Virus record (IMG/VR): IMGVR_UViG_3300034418_005051
Location: 1-39,867 of that record
DNA: 39,867 bases
Strand: one strand, 5' to 3'
From: a virus
Shown here: one piece after another, positions 3-39,867 of the stretch
How positions within the stretch are numbered: position 1 is the stretch's first letter
How the letters are laid out: each line of letters opens with the position of its first letter
The notes under the pieces: generated by a model
Seen by the model: the letters and a program-made list of their open reading frames with translations, nothing else
Database searches by the model: none
What the model was told of the DNA's origin: nothing
Program-made: the position numbers and the translations under genes

Positions 3-266
3 AGTTTGTGTCGGGCTCGCTAATTGACTGTCGTCAAGCGTGTCCTCAAGCCCAGCAAAGAGCGGTAAATCACGCACAGCCTTCGTGTATTGTTCCATAT
101 AATCGGACATGACATAAATTGTTGTTGATAATTCTCCAATGATATCCTGCGTGTTACGCAAAGCTTCTATAAAATCCGCATCTTGCGAATCAATCCAAGT
201 CTGCTCCGTCAGTTTCTTCGATATCGTCTCGAACGATACTTTCACCTTCATCACGTTGTTGCTCAT
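3..266 (-). CDS. Partial hypothetical protein running off the left edge
   Basis: An open frame begins at ATG 264-266 and stays open to the window edge, so the C-terminus is missing. About 88 residues are visible, starting MSNNVMKVSFETISKK. The start is supported by a GAGGAG Shine-Dalgarno sequence 7 bases upstream. The first 77 bases overlap the 3' end of the sigma-like gene in another frame. The visible part looks mainly helical and soluble, with no recognisable motif. If the two ends of the window are joined in a circle, this frame would reach a TGA at 39807-39809 and give a 108-aa protein with a basic C-terminus. I do not recognise the family. Confidence 0.6.
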   Translation of the reverse strand, partial: MSNNVMKVKVSFETISKKLTEQTWIDSQDADFIEALRNTQDIIGELSTTIYVMSDYMEQYTKAVRDLPLFAGLEDTLDDSQLASPTQT

Positions 267-888
267 TGACTTGCTCCTCTGTGTAATCTCTTTCCCTGCG
301 TGGTCGTTTACCACCCAAGAAGTTTATCAGGTTATTCATAGCGCGGTTCACGCGCATACGCGCAGCGTCCTGACTGATAGATAATTCCTTTGCTACTACC
401 GCTATGTCAAAGTTGTCTGCGAAACGTAAGTAAATCAGGTTGTATTGTTCTTCAGGTAATTTCTCTAGTGCGTGCTGGATATCTGCCATCATAGCAAACC
501 AATTACCACCCTCAGCAGCAACCTTCTTCGTGCTACTGAAGCCTAAATCTACGAGTGATGGTGCTACTAAATCTCCGCGCATTACCGCTGGAAGTAGTAG
601 TTCTACCACCTCTCGATCGTAGTAGTATAAGTCATCAACCTTGTACCCGACCGCGTTAGCCTTCTCTTTCTGACAGTAATCCTTAGCAGCATTACGCAAC
701 GAGCGCGCTATGAGCTTCGTTGATTGCTTGCCGTCAAGTGCTTCCCACACCTTCACCTTGTTAGGGTGTTCCAAGAACCATACCCAAAGTTCCTGCCTTA
801 TATCTTCGACAGGAACCATGTAGAACTTACGAGAAAACTCATACGCAATAGAAGCAACAAGATTCTCATAATGTTCTGTTATTACCAC
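190..888 (-). CDS. Sigma-70-like / HTH DNA-binding protein
   Basis: A 232-aa protein probably acting as a sigma-like transcription factor. An N-terminal helical part (visible pieces include VEDIRQELWVWFLEHP) resembles sigma region 2. Around residues 150-200 there is a region-4-like helix-turn-helix: LEKLPEEQYNLIYLRF followed by ELSISQDAARMRVNRAM. The acidic C-terminal tail (about 35 residues) overlaps the next gene. A longer frame could start at TTG 912. I prefer GTG 886-888 because it overlaps the stop of the upstream gene by a few bases, as most neighbours do, and has GGGAGA about 9 bases upstream. It closes the early block, so it could redirect host polymerase to phage promoters. That role is inferred. 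Confidence 0.7.
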   Translation of the reverse strand: MVITEHYENLVASIAYEFSRKFYMVPVEDIRQELWVWFLEHPNKVKVWEALDGKQSTKLIARSLRNAAKDYCQKEKANAVGYKVDDLYYYDREVVELLLPAVMRGDLVAPSLVDLGFSSTKKVAAEGGNWFAMMADIQHALEKLPEEQYNLIYLRFADNFDIAVVAKELSISQDAARMRVNRAMNNLINFLGGKRPRRERDYTEEQVNEQQRDEGESIVRDDIEETDGADLD

Positions 889-1646
889 GCGTACACTTCT
901 CCCTCTACGCAAAAGGAACGACCAATAATTGGAACATTCACGGGTGTTACGTTCGATCGACGAACATACAATACCGTGAATCCTTGTTGCCAGTTAGCAG
1001 CACCTGTTGATAGGTAATCTGCTTTATTTAGATCCATTAAGTGACCTACTTCGACTCCGAAAAGTCTATTGGAGATTCGACCATTGTAACCGACGTGATA
1101 ATGTTGGATTCCTTGGCGATGAGTGTGTCCACATACGACAGATAGTCCGATACGTCTTGCAAGGTTAAGCGCAGTTCCTCCCGCAGTTTGTAAAAGACTT
1201 CCCTCATCTCCGTGGGCAAGAGCCCATCCGGGCGCAAATTGCCAGATTTTATTGTGATAGGTAATATCAAGTTCATCGTATCGGAGCAACGCTTCATACT
1301 CCAATTCGCGCAATCCTGCAAGTGCTGGAGCGTACTTGTCGATGTAGTTTCCGATTCTATCTCCATGATTACTCCTCATCACATGAAAAGGTTTATCACC
1401 TAATGCATTCTTGAAACCTTCCATAATATTAGATGTCTTATCAAGACCTGCCTGTAAAGTCTTTGAGTATTCTGCTGCTCGTCCCTTGTTCCATCGTGAT
1501 GGTTCAGGGCTATCAGCCTCATCACCTACGCAGTATACTTCATCAGGCTCGAAGTCCTCAATGAATTCTTGAAGCGTAGTGATGGCCCTGCCATCGTGAC
1601 TAGGTGCTTGAATATCAGAAAGAACTACTATTTTCTTCAGTTTCAT
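882..1646 (-). CDS. Calcineurin-like metallophosphoesterase
   Basis: A 254-aa two-metal phosphoesterase. The canonical ligand motifs appear in order: SDIQ (D11), GDEAD (D42), SNHGD (N93-H94), AHGD (H145) and GHTHR (H174, H176). Length and motif spacing match the stand-alone phosphoesterases common in phages, which act on nucleotides, nucleic acid ends or phosphoproteins. The substrate cannot be read from the sequence. It is translationally coupled: the start at 1646 overlaps the HNH stop by 4 bases. Its place among replication genes suggests a DNA or nucleotide substrate, but that is inference. Confidence 0.85.
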   Translation of the reverse strand: MKLKKIVVLSDIQAPSHDGRAITTLQEFIEDFEPDEVYCVGDEADSPEPSRWNKGRAAEYSKTLQAGLDKTSNIMEGFKNALGDKPFHVMRSNHGDRIGNYIDKYAPALAGLRELEYEALLRYDELDITYHNKIWQFAPGWALAHGDEGSLLQTAGGTALNLARRIGLSVVCGHTHRQGIQHYHVGYNGRISNRLFGVEVGHLMDLNKADYLSTGAANWQQGFTVLYVRRSNVTPVNVPIIGRSFCVEGEVYAW

Positions 1647-4231: not shown

Positions 4232-4431
4232 CTTTCCTCCGTTGGAGCGGTTGCTTGTGTTCCACAGTCAGCACACTCCATATCTAAGAAATACATCCCT
4301 ATCGTACCATCCTCATCGAATGTTACTTTAAGGTTCCATAAGAAACTACCACACACACATACCGTGGTTGGTTTACCACGTATATCCATCGCCCGAGTGT
4401 AGTCAGGACGTAACTCGGTTATGTCTTTCAC
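4228..4431 (-). CDS. Small zinc-ribbon hypothetical protein
   Basis: A 67-aa acidic protein with a split zinc ribbon: VCVCGSF (C-x-C) and, 20-odd residues on, CADCGT (C-x2-C). No other motif is visible. The frame is open back to TTG 4464, but GTG 4429-4431 forms a GTGA overlap with the stop of the proteasome-like gene, the coupling used throughout this operon, so I place the start there. Small zinc ribbons of this kind are common in actinophages without assigned function. Confidence 0.65.
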   Translation of the reverse strand: MKDITELRPDYTRAMDIRGKPTTVCVCGSFLWNLKVTFDEDGTIGMYFLDMECADCGTQATAPTEER

Positions 4432-4988
4432 TTGCTCTGCGTAACTATTTGTATAGGTAGGCAAGTGTTGATGTCAAGCCTACAGGAGATAGCAAGGGCT
4501 TTCTTCGCTATCAAAGTAGCAGCTTGAACTGACTTGATCTTCTTTGTATCCACCGAGTGGAGATACCCAAGAGCGAACGAGCCACCAGAGCCAGCAGCAT
4601 AATAACCTGACTCTGTACATAAGAAGGACATATCATCACCTATAGAAAACAATTTACCATTGAATCCTAATAAATATTGGAATGAAATTTCCTTCTTATC
4701 TTCCCCTTCTAAGTCAAAGCCATTAACCTTAAAGGCTTCAAGCATAGAGGGAATAATAGATTTACCCATGAATTGAATCTCATCACCTTGTTTGTAGACA
4801 GGTGGATTCCAGTTGTAAGTCAAGATATCTCCCGGACGAGCATCGCCTGAGATACCTAAAATATATTTACCAATGCGTATAATCTTGGGTGTCTTGGGAG
4901 AGATGATGCGCTGGTTATCTTCGGTTATTTGCGAATCGGCTGCCATGACTATAAAGTCTTTGCCTTGTATTCCGACTATTGTTGTCAC
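4428..4988 (-). CDS. Proteasome beta / HslV-like Ntn hydrolase
   Basis: A 186-aa protein with the look of a proteasome beta-type peptidase. It begins M-TTIVGIQGKDFIVMAADSQ. Removing Met exposes Thr2 as N-terminal nucleophile, and Asp18 then falls at proteasome position 17. SPKTPKIIRIGKYILGISGD supplies a Lys near position 33 (K35), and YYAAGSGGSFALGYL matches the SGG loop that holds the proteasome's active-site Ser. It is shorter than cellular 20S beta subunits (no propeptide) and close to HslV length. Start is GTG 4986-4988 with AGGGAG 7 bases upstream. No ATPase partner is encoded here. It could form its own ring, join or poison the host proteasome, or process phage proteins. Those roles are inference. 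Confidence 0.8.
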   Translation of the reverse strand: MTTIVGIQGKDFIVMAADSQITEDNQRIISPKTPKIIRIGKYILGISGDARPGDILTYNWNPPVYKQGDEIQFMGKSIIPSMLEAFKVNGFDLEGEDKKEISFQYLLGFNGKLFSIGDDMSFLCTESGYYAAGSGGSFALGYLHSVDTKKIKSVQAATLIAKKALAISCRLDINTCLPIQIVTQSK

Positions 4989-35749: not shown

Positions 35750-35938
35750 ATGTATCTATCCGACCTCGACATTGTTGCTATTTCCATAGCACTCGTGTCG
35801 TTAATGGCTCTCGTAATCACGAGTGCCGTTGCTAACGCAAGACTCACACGCCAGCGTGACGAGTGGCGTCGTGAAGCATTGAACCTTCAGCGAGTAATGG
35901 ACTCGTTGTCGCCCATCACACGAAAGGAAAACGCATGA
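35750..35938 (+). CDS. Small single-pass membrane protein
   Basis: A 62-aa protein: short N-terminus, one membrane helix (VAISIALVSLMALVITSAVA, residues 9-28) and a basic amphipathic C-terminal helix (RLTRQRDEWRREALNLQRVM). It is the first gene of the operon that carries the amidoligase, overlapping it by 4 bases. It may anchor a partner at the membrane or change the envelope. No family is recognised. Confidence 0.75.
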   Translation: MYLSDLDIVAISIALVSLMALVITSAVANARLTRQRDEWRREALNLQRVMDSLSPITRKENA

Positions 35939-37509
35939 CCAACTCATATCCACCCGACCTACCCCCCGAAATACACTTCTCGTGGGGTGTCACAGGTGTC
36001 GGCGCATGTGCCAGATGCCGAGATATTCGCACGCTCATAGTTCACTCTGCTCTTCACACGGCAGATGAGTGTGAGCCATTATGCTTAGAGTGCCTTCACT
36101 CGGCACTTACAACTTTCTGTTCAGACGCTCGCTCAAAGATGTGGGAGTTTGAACAAAACGGAGCGCGCATTGAAGATACTCCTGAGTATCAAGTGGCAAA
36201 GGCTACTTACGACACCTATTACGAGGTAATAGATGTGTTGATGAATAATCGCGCTCGTATCCAGCACACACGAGAGGAAGTCCTAGCACACGAACAAGGT
36301 TGTAAAGCCTGTGCGTGCTTCGGCTCTAACCTTGTTTTCGCTATATCGTATTATGACCACAGCATTACAGGTAGGGTTCACGAGAACTGTGCTAGTCGTT
36401 GCTCTTGTTGTGATAAGAACTACTATCGTCCATTTTCGCGTGGAGTTGGCGGTTATTTCGAACTAAATCGCGTAATGAGGGAACGAGGCGCTCTTTCACG
36501 AATATGCCAAGAGTGTTTTGATGAACTTCGCATAGAGGACTCACACATGCTGTGTGACTGTGGCAATTGGGATACAGAGGAACGCATGTTTGAAGCGTGG
36601 GATAATCTCTACTGCCGAGGGTGTTCTTCCAATATAGATGACTGCGACTATTGCGGTGAACTACGCTGGACAGATGGCGACCATACATGCGACGAAGAAA
36701 GTCGAGTTATCAAGAGTTATGACTTCGTGCCTAGCGGTGGCTTCGTGTTTCATGGTGATAGCCCACTTAATCACTATCTAGGGTTCGAACTCGAGGTCGA
36801 ACTACCGAGCGGTGATAGCCTCAAGCCTATCGCTTCACAGACAAATGACTTAATCGGTGAGCGTGGTTTTCTCAAGTATGACGGCTCGCTTGATAACGGC
36901 TTCGAGTTAGTCACCATGCCACACACACTTGAGGAATACATGAGCAAGTTCCCGTTCACGGCACTTGACGAACTCCGCGAGAGCGGTTTTCGCTCATGGG
37001 ATACCGATACATGTGGCTTCCATATCCATGTATCACGAGCCACATTCGGTATGCGCTTGAAGGATACAAAACCTACACAGGGTCGCAAAGACGCACACAT
37101 GCTCCGCTTTACGAAACTCATCTACGATAATCGTAGGCAAGTTAAGCGTATCGCAGGTAGAAGTTCCGATAGGTGGGCTTCGTTTGATGATGTAGGTCGT
37201 TTGACCGATAAAATCAAGACAGGTCATCAGGTAAATGGCAGATACTCCGCAGTAAATATCTCATCTAAGCGCACACTCGAGATCCGTGTGTTCAAGGGTT
37301 CTCTCAATGTGAGCCGAGTGAAGGCATACCTTCAGTTCGTTCACAGCACAGTCGAGTATACACGGGAGCTTCATGTAAGCCCTAATGATAACAACCTGAT
37401 GTGGCGTAGATACACGGGTTGGCTTCACAAGAACGAACAGCAGTATCCCGAGTTGGTATCCCTACTCGGCAACCTACCCGAAAGACGCTCTGATGAAGGG
37501 GGCAACTAG
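35935..37509 (+). CDS. Amidoligase (COOH-NH2 ligase) with N-terminal zinc knuckles
   Basis: A 524-aa protein. The C-terminal half has the glutamine-synthetase-like amidoligase plan: YLGFELEVEL (281-290), LKYDGSLDNGFELVTMPHT (313-331), TCGFHIHVSRATF (359-371) and RYSAVNISSKRTLEIRVFKG (436-455), giving metal/ATP-binding Glu, Asp, His and Arg residues. The N-terminal 250 residues contain about nine Cys pairs (e.g. CARC, CLEC, CKAC, CQEC, CDC, CRGC, CDYC), likely several zinc ribbons or knuckles. The family joins a carboxylate to an amine using ATP. The product here is unknown. The class II amidotransferase directly downstream should supply ammonia. The ribosome site is the CACACGAAAGG module. 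Confidence 0.85.
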   Translation: MTNSYPPDLPPEIHFSWGVTGVGACARCRDIRTLIVHSALHTADECEPLCLECLHSALTTFCSDARSKMWEFEQNGARIEDTPEYQVAKATYDTYYEVIDVLMNNRARIQHTREEVLAHEQGCKACACFGSNLVFAISYYDHSITGRVHENCASRCSCCDKNYYRPFSRGVGGYFELNRVMRERGALSRICQECFDELRIEDSHMLCDCGNWDTEERMFEAWDNLYCRGCSSNIDDCDYCGELRWTDGDHTCDEESRVIKSYDFVPSGGFVFHGDSPLNHYLGFELEVELPSGDSLKPIASQTNDLIGERGFLKYDGSLDNGFELVTMPHTLEEYMSKFPFTALDELRESGFRSWDTDTCGFHIHVSRATFGMRLKDTKPTQGRKDAHMLRFTKLIYDNRRQVKRIAGRSSDRWASFDDVGRLTDKIKTGHQVNGRYSAVNISSKRTLEIRVFKGSLNVSRVKAYLQFVHSTVEYTRELHVSPNDNNLMWRRYTGWLHKNEQQYPELVSLLGNLPERRSDEGGN

Positions 37510-37511
37510 TT

Positions 37512-38387
37512 ATGTGTATGTTATGTGTAATACCACCGAACACTATCCCATCACGGGATAAGTTAGAAAACTCTGCGCTCAACAACCCACATGGGTTCGG
37601 TTTCGCTATCGTTGTGCCTGAGGAAAATCGTATCATCTGCGAGCGTAGTATGAGCGCAGACGAAAGCATTAACCGCTTCCTTGAGTTGCGTGGTAAGTAT
37701 CAGACGGGCTATGCCATGTGGCACGCTCGTATTGCTACGAGTGGCAAGATAGATATATCTAACTGCCACCCGTTCCTGCTACCTGATAGCGAGCACCCAA
37801 ACACTACCTATGTAGGACACAATGGTATGCTTGATGTCTACGAAGCCAAAGACGAAGTGCGTAGTGACACACGCATATTCGTAGAGGACTTAATTCCTGC
37901 TCTTGGTGGCGTGACCGCGCTCGATAACATTCAAATATTCACCATGCTTGACGAGTTCACACGCGGATCAAAGGTGTGTATTCTTACAGTTCACCCAAAG
38001 GCTGAGTATCAGATGTATCTATTCCACGAGGAAGCAGGTCACACAGACGAGGACAAAGTGTGGTGGTCGAATAAGTCGTGCGAACTAGATACCAAAAGTC
38101 TTTACAACGGCTACTACGACTATGGCTACGCAGGAGCTTTCGTTAAAGACGGCAAGGAAGGCGTGGAAGCGTATTACAACTGGTATGTATGCCAAACATG
38201 TAAGCACGAGTTCGACTGGGAAACCGAGTGTCCTGATGACTACTGCCCCAAGTGCCGAACCTGCCTTATGTGTGAGTCAAGCGAGGCGGTGTGCTTCTGC
38301 TATCGCCCTGAGAGCAAAAAGAAAACAGACTATGACCGACCTCATAGGTCATACTACGCACCTGAAGGGGGGTGGGCTATATCATGA
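37512..38387 (+). CDS. Class II glutamine amidotransferase with C-terminal zinc ribbon
   Basis: A 291-aa Ntn hydrolase: MCMLCVIPPN with Cys2 as nucleophile, NNPHGFGFAIV (24-34), MWHARIATSGKIDISNCHPF (69-88) and YVGHNGMLDVY (100-110). All are standard class II GATase motifs (R-T/A-x-G, N-x-HPF, GHNG). The domain releases ammonia from glutamine. The C-terminus adds a Cys-rich part (CQTCKHEF, CPKCRTCLMC, CFC; 227-263), probably zinc-binding. It starts two bases after the amidoligase stop, so the two are almost certainly one functional pair. Confidence 0.9.
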   Translation: MCMLCVIPPNTIPSRDKLENSALNNPHGFGFAIVVPEENRIICERSMSADESINRFLELRGKYQTGYAMWHARIATSGKIDISNCHPFLLPDSEHPNTTYVGHNGMLDVYEAKDEVRSDTRIFVEDLIPALGGVTALDNIQIFTMLDEFTRGSKVCILTVHPKAEYQMYLFHEEAGHTDEDKVWWSNKSCELDTKSLYNGYYDYGYAGAFVKDGKEGVEAYYNWYVCQTCKHEFDWETECPDDYCPKCRTCLMCESSEAVCFCYRPESKKKTDYDRPHRSYYAPEGGWAIS

Positions 38388-38587
38388 TAACCGAGAGCAA
38401 ACTCATAACCGCGCTTATCAACGCTGGTTTAACTTATTCACCTGAAGCGGGTGACCCGTATCCAATGCGCCGAGTTCCGTGTGCTGATGTGGTGAAAGTT
38501 GTTTCACACTTTCTCATGGAAGCAGGTGTAGAGGTCAAGCAAGACCTTGAGCCAAAACACAGCGAGAAAGCGAAGTGGTCACTATGA
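38384..38587 (+). CDS. Small hypothetical protein
   Basis: A 67-aa protein, MITESKLITALINAGLTYSP, ADVVKVVSHFLMEAGVEVKQ, helical and soluble. It is coupled to the amidotransferase by ATGA (38384-38387). A GTG four codons upstream is less likely. I do not recognise it. Position alone suggests it supports or receives the amidoligase reaction. Confidence 0.65.
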   Translation: MITESKLITALINAGLTYSPEAGDPYPMRRVPCADVVKVVSHFLMEAGVEVKQDLEPKHSEKAKWSL

Positions 38588-38781
38588 CACGCACTTGGAA
38601 ACCTGTTCCGCCCACGCCGTTCTACCTGAGCAAACGCGCAGAGTGGTTTCGGCGTGAGGCGGAGAAAGCACTTCTGCGTGGAGAAAAGACAAACGCACAT
38701 CATCTCACTATGCGAGCGCAGGAATACTCTGCGCTTGCTGGTGAACTAGAACTAGGAGATACACATGCCCAAACAAGTTGA
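38584..38781 (+). CDS. Small basic helical protein
   Basis: A 65-aa protein, MTRTWKPVPPTPFYLSKRAE and helical EWFRREAEKALLRGEKTNAH, then LAGELELGDTHAQTS. Coupled to the previous gene by ATGA at 38584. The Pro-rich start and amphipathic helix fit a peptide that binds a partner. No family recognised. Confidence 0.6.
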   Translation: MTRTWKPVPPTPFYLSKRAEWFRREAEKALLRGEKTNAHHLTMRAQEYSALAGELELGDTHAQTS

Positions 38782-38884: not shown

Positions 38885-39213
38885 GAACGAAAAAATACAC
38901 ATGGGAAAATCTCGTGTGGGAAGAAGTGGGTGATGGACTACTTGAGTGTAGTGTGTCGCTCTATCCTGCCGAATACTTACGCATAGAGGAAGGGTGGTCT
39001 ATTGATGGTCCGGCACGCGTGACTCTCAAGTGGACACCTAGTAAGAAACACACACGCGTAGTGGTCAAACCGCTACCTGCGAGTGAGTTCAACATAGACG
39101 ACCCACAAGAGTATCCATGCGCTTCGTGTGGTGCTGCTAGAAAGTCGCCATGTGTAGGTGATGACACACGCTGTATGTATCGTGTGTTCTCATTCTCGGG
39201 TGGTGAGTTATGA
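38881..39213 (+). CDS. Hypothetical protein with C-terminal Cys knot
   Basis: A 110-aa protein. The N-terminal 75 residues are beta-rich (EVGDGLLECSVSLYPAEYLR, GPARVTLKWTPSKKHTRVVV). The end carries CASCGAARKSPC and CMYR, a possible zinc or iron-sulfur site. It is coupled by ATGA at both ends. I do not recognise the family. Confidence 0.65.
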   Translation: MRTKKYTWENLVWEEVGDGLLECSVSLYPAEYLRIEEGWSIDGPARVTLKWTPSKKHTRVVVKPLPASEFNIDDPQEYPCASCGAARKSPCVGDDTRCMYRVFSFSGGEL

Positions 39214-39536
39214 AACTCGACCTACCTGTGTTCTCGAAACACCCTTCGTGTGCTGATGCTCTCGAACCCGACATGTGGTTTCCTGAGGAAAAGAGCGGTA
39301 AGTCTGGGCGTGGTTGGTCACACACGCCTAGCGCCGAGCTTGCGCGTGACATTTGTAGAGGTTGCGAAGCCTTTACTGAGTGTAAGGAATACGCGCTACA
39401 ATTCCAAGACCTTGCTGGCATTTGGGCAGACCAAGATCGCCACGAGCGTTATGAGGAACAGATAAAGCGTGGCATTACGCCACGCCCCGTATGGAATACG
39501 ATAGTCACGCAGAGTAGGAGGTTGCTAGATGAGTAA
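39210..39536 (+). CDS. WhiB-family Fe-S transcription factor
   Basis: A 108-aa WhiB-like protein: C14 in PSCADALEPDMWF, C49, C52 and C58 in ICRGCEAFTECKEYAL, and LAGIWADQDR where WhiB proteins have the G-[IV]-W-G-G turn. The four Cys hold a 4Fe-4S cluster. The C-terminal part is basic and likely contacts DNA. WhiB proteins are restricted to actinobacteria and their phages, so this is the best host marker in the window. Phage copies can repress host whiB genes or set infection timing. Confidence 0.9.
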   Translation: MKLDLPVFSKHPSCADALEPDMWFPEEKSGKSGRGWSHTPSAELARDICRGCEAFTECKEYALQFQDLAGIWADQDRHERYEEQIKRGITPRPVWNTIVTQSRRLLDE

Positions 39537-39636: not shown

Positions 39637-39648
39637 CTTCTACTCGGA

Positions 39649-39685
39649 AGCCCTACGCGTGTGTGGCGCGTGGGGCTTTTTTTTT
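39649..39685 (+). terminator. Rho-independent terminator of the plus-strand operon
   Basis: AGCCCTACGCG (39649-39659) pairs with CGCGTGGGGCT (39667-39677) over 11 bp with one T-G wobble and a 7-base loop, followed by nine T. It starts 13 bases after the last stop. Confidence 0.95.
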
Positions 39686-39867
39686 ATCCAACCTTGACCT
39701 GTCTTATGCTGACACGCGCAACCCGTGCAAGTCGCGCGTAATTGTTTCGCTGTATTTATATCTGACACGCGGTTGCGCTCACCCGCCCACCTACAAGATT
39801 TACAAATCATTTACGCTTAGCCCTACGCGTAGCACGATTACCTGATACGCGTGGATCACGCGTAGCG
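39686..39867. repeat. Non-coding right end, rich in ACGCGT palindromes and inverted repeats
   Basis: I see no credible plus-strand gene. CTGACACGCG occurs twice (39709-39718, 39762-39771). GCGCAACC (39716-39723) is inverted as GGTTGCGC (39771-39778). CTACGCGTAG (39823-39832) is a 10-bp palindrome, and ACGCGT recurs at 39847 and 39858. TTGTAGGTGGG from the divergent region is present inverted at 39786-39796. It could be a control region, an end for packaging, or the junction of a circular map. Confidence 0.6.

Follow-up and report, generated by a model that had tools for sequence, protein, structure and literature searches.

The window analysed here is the whole of a 39,867-bp viral record (positions 1 to 39,867 of IMGVR_UViG_3300034418_005051), with genes that include those for a WhiB-like regulator, a sigma factor, a primase, a DnaB helicase, a terminase, a portal and head proteins. 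This gene content is consistent with a tailed phage, and the WhiB gene suggests an actinobacterial host. Opposite the late genes lies a short plus-strand operon whose core is a pair of genes separated by 2 bp, the spacing that an initial annotation of this DNA had also given. The first (35935..37509, plus strand) encodes a putative GS-like amidoligase of 524 aa and the second (37512..38387, plus strand) a predicted class II glutamine amidotransferase (GATase) of 291 aa; a membrane peptide stands in front of the pair and WhiB behind it.

From the membrane peptide through WhiB the genes look like one operon. The leading gene encodes a 62-aa single-pass membrane peptide (35750..35938, plus strand) and runs 4 bp into the start of the ligase gene. 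Such a peptide was detected in 58 of 74 testable pair loci, in 55 of them on the plus strand immediately ahead of the ligase; its membrane segment is conserved and its C-terminus is variable. That variability led us to reject the idea that the peptide is itself a substrate modified at the C-terminus. Downstream of the GATase gene come a 68-aa protein (38575..38781, plus strand; DUF1771-like at E 0.0034, below the Pfam cutoff), which occurs in 54 of 84 testable pair loci, and the WhiB-like regulator (39210..39536; PF02467, E 9.7e-10), the last plus-strand gene of the operon and a plus-strand gene in 58 of 74 testable pair loci. In most pair loci the order is terminase on the minus strand, followed on the plus strand by membrane peptide, ligase, GATase, 68-aa protein and WhiB. 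A pattern scan placed a terminator-like hairpin of 15 pairs followed by a T run after WhiB (39646..39680, plus strand), which would end the operon; the scan gave 8 hits in all, only slightly above the 5.1 +/- 2.0 of shuffled sequences, and promoter-like sites in the window were no more numerous than expected by chance. Convergent with the operon is a 56-aa CxxC...CxxC peptide on the minus strand (39640-39810), conserved in 52 of 74 testable relatives. It and the membrane peptide correspond to the flanking zinc-ribbon and membrane peptides of the initial annotation.

Two other features of the window deserve mention. A phage sigma factor gene (190-912, minus strand) adjoins a metallophosphoesterase gene (882-1646, minus strand), and since most long relatives carry these two genes downstream of the pair, the two ends of the window may be neighbours in the genome. 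Adjoining the DnaB helicase gene is a gene for a Proteasome-beta/HslV-family peptidase (4428-4988, minus strand; PF00227, E 1.9e-11) with the N-terminus V-T-T-I-V. A link between this peptidase and the pair was considered because PafA and Dop have the GS fold too. It was dropped, as just 2 of the 21 large relatives that were fetched as pair carriers have the peptidase, one of them with a match above the family cutoff.

By profile, fold and active-site residues, the first protein of the pair is a GS-like amidoligase whose catalysis is predicted. It matches PF12224 (Amidoligase_2) over residues 322-470 with E 4.8e-6 and 27.1 bits against a gathering score of 22, and 53 of 54 aligned members match this family at E 0.1 or better. 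Across these 54 proteins, G283, E285, E287, E289, D316, E324, H363, H365, R409, N441, T447, E449 and R451 are invariant, and the acidic/His/Arg active-site set of the GS fold is present among them (E285, E287, E324, H363, H365, E449 and R451). In AlphaFold models of the whole proteins (mean pLDDT 84 for the ligase and 82 for the GATase), the range of the structural alignment assigns about residues 276-512 (36760..37470, plus strand) to the GS-like catalytic domain. In Foldseek, the first 16 hits of the ligase model are without exception carboxylate-amine ligases (YbdK, GmaS, PafA, GS and Dop), with YbdK (E 2.3e-6) and GmaS the best, and VIA-align gives Z scores of about 12 to GS and YbdK over 185-217 residues. 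Median dN/dS is 0.19 for the ligase and 0.15 for the GATase. Other collections were less informative: the nearest PHROGs of both proteins are without assigned function, neither protein matches a PADLOC defence family, and an NCBIfam scan of the pair gave GlmS matches only, all sub-threshold.

The second protein, judged by fold and residues, is a class II glutamine amidotransferase; its predicted transfer of ammonia to a synthetase has indirect support in the conserved pairing with the ligase. It scores above the gathering score of PF13230 (E 3.1e-6), and C2, R73, T76, N104, G105 and D119 are invariant in 47 aligned sequences. The features of the class are therefore in place: the Ntn fold, the Cys immediately after the initiator Met, and the Arg, Asn-Gly and Asp of the glutamine site. 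The model matches GlmS, EgtC and PurF with Z scores of 12-14. EgtA is a GS-fold glutamate-cysteine ligase, and the place of EgtC among these matches raises the question of whether the two proteins put on and take off gamma-glutamyl groups as EgtA and EgtC do in the ergothioneine pathway, the ligase making a glutamyl amide and the Ntn enzyme hydrolysing gamma-glutamyl bonds. EgtC ties with GlmS as a fold match (Z 13.5-14.0), and YbdK and GmaS, which head the Foldseek hits of the ligase, make glutamyl amides. However, the sequence profile of the GATase has PurF and GlmS chains as its nearest matches and finds no EgtC at E 0.1, and the ligase matches Amidoligase_2 rather than the glutamate-cysteine ligase families. 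We consider the gamma-glutamyl scenario unlikely.

What sets the ligase apart is its N-terminal part, roughly 250 residues containing five four-ligand sets of Cys and His. Module 1 (C25, C28, C50, C53; 36007..36093, plus strand) is kept in 89-92% of aligned rows; modules 2 (C123, C126, H149, C152) and 3 (C156, C159, C191, C194), together at 36301..36516 (plus strand), in 94-98%; and modules 4 (C207, C209, C227, C230) and 5 (C237, C240, H250, C252), at 36553..36690 (plus strand), in 86-100%. The pattern comprises eight CxxC or CxC pairs and two His-Cys pairs (H149-C152 and H250-C252), roughly the nine Cys pairs counted in the initial annotation. In a set of 64 proteins (the window protein and 63 homologues), the 20 Cys and His of the pattern are 86-100% conserved, compared with only 2-9% for the N-terminal Cys residues that lie off it (C46, C62, C128 and C158). 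This contrast is strong evidence that the modules of the ligase are real metal sites. The GATase ends in a Cys-rich tail (38190..38300, plus strand), also recognised at the outset, in which each of eight Cys (C227, C230, C245, C248, C251, C254, C261 and C263) is conserved in at least 95% of sequences. The modules of both proteins are under selection, and we infer from the Cys spacing and conservation that the metal is zinc. With respect to known domains, a LIM identity of the Cys modules is no more than a lead: the ligase alignment profile matches CRP2 chains with E 0.013, and Pfam LIM has no match among the 54 ligase members. GS-like amidoligases with several CxxC modules and no recognisable GATase were also observed in a Eubacteriaceae-binned contig (L083, 5665-7140), where the LIM score is weak (E 0.76), and in a gut phage contig (L004, 4161-5153), which is a short record.

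The two genes are rarely found apart. A scan of IMG/VR with the GATase gave 73 loci, in 68 of which the ligase gene is directly upstream; in the remaining five, the GATase gene starts within 124 bases of the contig end, so that the genes are adjacent in 68 of 68 testable contigs. A scan with the ligase alignment gave at least 599 pattern matches, at least 574 of which encode relatives. The GATase lies beside the ligase in 75 of the 78 loci newly fetched with this alignment, those of the genome-contig scan given below included; two others are cut off, and the last, on a Eubacteriaceae-binned contig, is without a recognisable GATase. The two scans overlap in contigs, and 93 distinct pair loci remain after removal of duplicates. 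To avoid selecting on the pair itself, contigs were also chosen by terminase alone, and 25 of the 26 with enough sequence carry both genes. The pair is thus nearly always present, as a near-core component, in a large, unstudied clade of WhiB-bearing phages, the hosts of which are probably actinobacteria. A profile scan of genome contigs found two relatives only, the unpaired one in L083 and one in L084 (2-1517), a Patescibacteria-binned contig in which ligase and GATase are adjacent; L084 could be a phage contig inside a Patescibacteria bin.

Constant adjacency might in principle reflect descent alone, with the two enzymes belonging to separate pathways, because most of the loci represent one clade with conserved synteny in which the terminase likewise keeps its place. 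Nevertheless, unrelated genomes (Marvin, MEP402, ctgrD200 and L084) also carry the pair with almost no gap between the genes, and the covariation of ligase and GATase is stronger than that of either with WhiB or terminase. Spearman distance correlations are 0.85-0.88 for ligase and GATase, 0.59 for ligase and WhiB and 0.75 for ligase and terminase, values that are descriptive since sequence pairs are non-independent. Neighbourhood by descent alone is accordingly very improbable. The initial annotation, which read the genes as an amidoligase with its motif set and a class II GATase with Cys2, had named in advance three outcomes that would count against it, namely absence of a GS-like fold, loss of active-site residues and absence of conserved pairing; the predicted folds, the residues and the pairing were all found.

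A pair of this kind has been seen before. In mycobacteriophage Marvin (gp105-gp106) and the other Marvin-like mycobacteriophages that we found, where the pair is already annotated, the same two genes occur in the same order on the plus strand near the genome end. The Marvin proteins match the window-clade profiles with E 5e-59 (ligase) and 5e-54 (GATase), and the Marvin GATase also has the Cys tail. The Marvin ligase is about 30% identical in the catalytic part, whereas its N-terminal part is much shorter, with fewer Cys pairs. Beside the Marvin pair there is no recognisable WhiB or matching membrane peptide, and for this reason we regard the pair as the unit and the operon as a feature of the clade. 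Pairs with fewer zinc modules are likewise present in Methylophilales phages, a spring podovirus and the Patescibacteria-binned contig. Actinobacteria and other Gram-positive bacteria amidate peptidoglycan carboxylates in a glutamine-dependent manner through AsnB/LtsA and MurT/GatD. These systems are functional analogies only, because their ligase folds differ and GatD is a class I GATase; the wall amidation by MurT/GatD is described in PMC3267633.

The Methylophilales phages MEP401 and MEP402 have an adjacent pair, homologous by profile, in which the GATase start lies inside the end of the ligase gene (PMC10580990). Unlike the window, they have one CxxC pair set in the ligase, a GATase without a Cys tail and a proteobacterial host. 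The same paper discusses the pair for Marvin and for the OM43 phages MEP401/402 and traces to Iyer et al. 2009 the hypothesis that a phage GS-like amidoligase and GATase II perhaps alter the envelope against superinfection (PMC10580990). A GS-like amidoligase and a class II GATase also occur in the peptidoglycan-modification cassette of phiEco32-, LUZ24- and RIO-1-type phages, for which an envelope change against superinfection was proposed and which, in addition, has ATP-grasp and gamma-glutamyl cyclotransferase genes (PMC5498523, PMC3890496). A search of the window for the cyclotransferase (GGACT, PF06094) gave no match at E 1, in a record that may lack some sequence, and no ATP-grasp ligase was seen among the scanned subset of window ORFs. 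There is a gradient in the modules: the cassette-type GATases and ligases tested have none, and those ligases match the window-clade profile only marginally; the MEP402 and Marvin ligases have one or a few CxxC pairs; and the window ligase has five four-ligand sets.

The pairing and the general hypothesis are therefore already known from Marvin, the OM43 phages and the cassettes, and the initial annotation, which had called the pair uncharacterised, overstated its novelty. It was correct in that searchable papers yielded no experimental characterisation or measured substrate of phage amidoligase-GATase pairs, which have been noted since 2009; taken as a whole, its interpretation is partly supported. 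What is new is the zinc architecture, the near-core place of the pair in a large clade of WhiB-bearing phages, and the conservation of an operon that also holds the membrane peptide and WhiB. The pair thus represents a known phage module in a near-core form that has been elaborated with zinc modules.

The enzyme classes, the intact active sites and the pairing are established at the level of sequence and predicted fold, and we think that the two proteins probably form an ammonia-coupled system for the glutamine-fed, ATP-driven amidation of a carboxylate. The class II GATase would hydrolyse glutamine through its N-terminal Cys, as its fold and invariant residues imply, and the ammonia would pass to the GS-like ligase, which would use ATP to activate the carboxylate of the substrate as an acyl phosphate before converting it to the amide. 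In both proteins the Cys modules are probably structural zinc sites that hold the substrate and/or the partner. Against such a mechanism, EgtC, equally close in fold to the GATase, is a hydrolase that feeds no ammonia, and the zinc-module ligase relatives in L083 and in the short record L004 are without a recognisable GATase.

Zinc modules are common protein-binding devices, and PafA and Dop are among the fold matches of the ligase. It is conceivable that the ligase acts as PafA does, joining the amine of an amino acid or peptide to a protein carboxylate under the guidance of the zinc modules, with the GATase a supplier of a small amine or an enzyme of side reactions. Both the conjugation and this role for the GATase seem distinctly unlikely, because neither a ubiquitin-like protein nor a conserved small substrate was observed next to the pair, the membrane peptide having a variable C-terminus, and because the almost constant presence of a glutaminase-type partner suggests that the amine is ammonia.

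For ammonia-dependent amidation, our favoured target, at somewhat less than an even chance, is a cell-envelope precursor or envelope protein whose alteration would keep out superinfecting phages or lysins; roughly as likely is a host or phage protein that the zinc modules recognise. The case for the envelope is circumstantial, resting on the earlier proposals of such a role for these phage enzymes (PMC10580990, PMC5498523, PMC11318856), the membrane peptide in front and the WhiB behind; within the WhiB family, a link with superinfection exclusion has been made for the member from phage TM4 (PMC8612146). Because neither gene is conserved beside the Marvin pair, they support an envelope role at the level of the clade only.

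Finally, we note that because the pair is near-core and highly conserved in the clade, and because a related pair is present in Marvin, which grows on M. smegmatis mc2 155, both the amidation target and a block to superinfection are directly testable. We suggest, tentatively, that the pair may form a zinc-scaffolded, membrane-tethered amidation complex, near-universal in the clade, that modifies a specific host or phage protein or an envelope precursor. If so, it would be a phage modification system with a substrate-recognition head that is absent from the known amidoligase cassettes.
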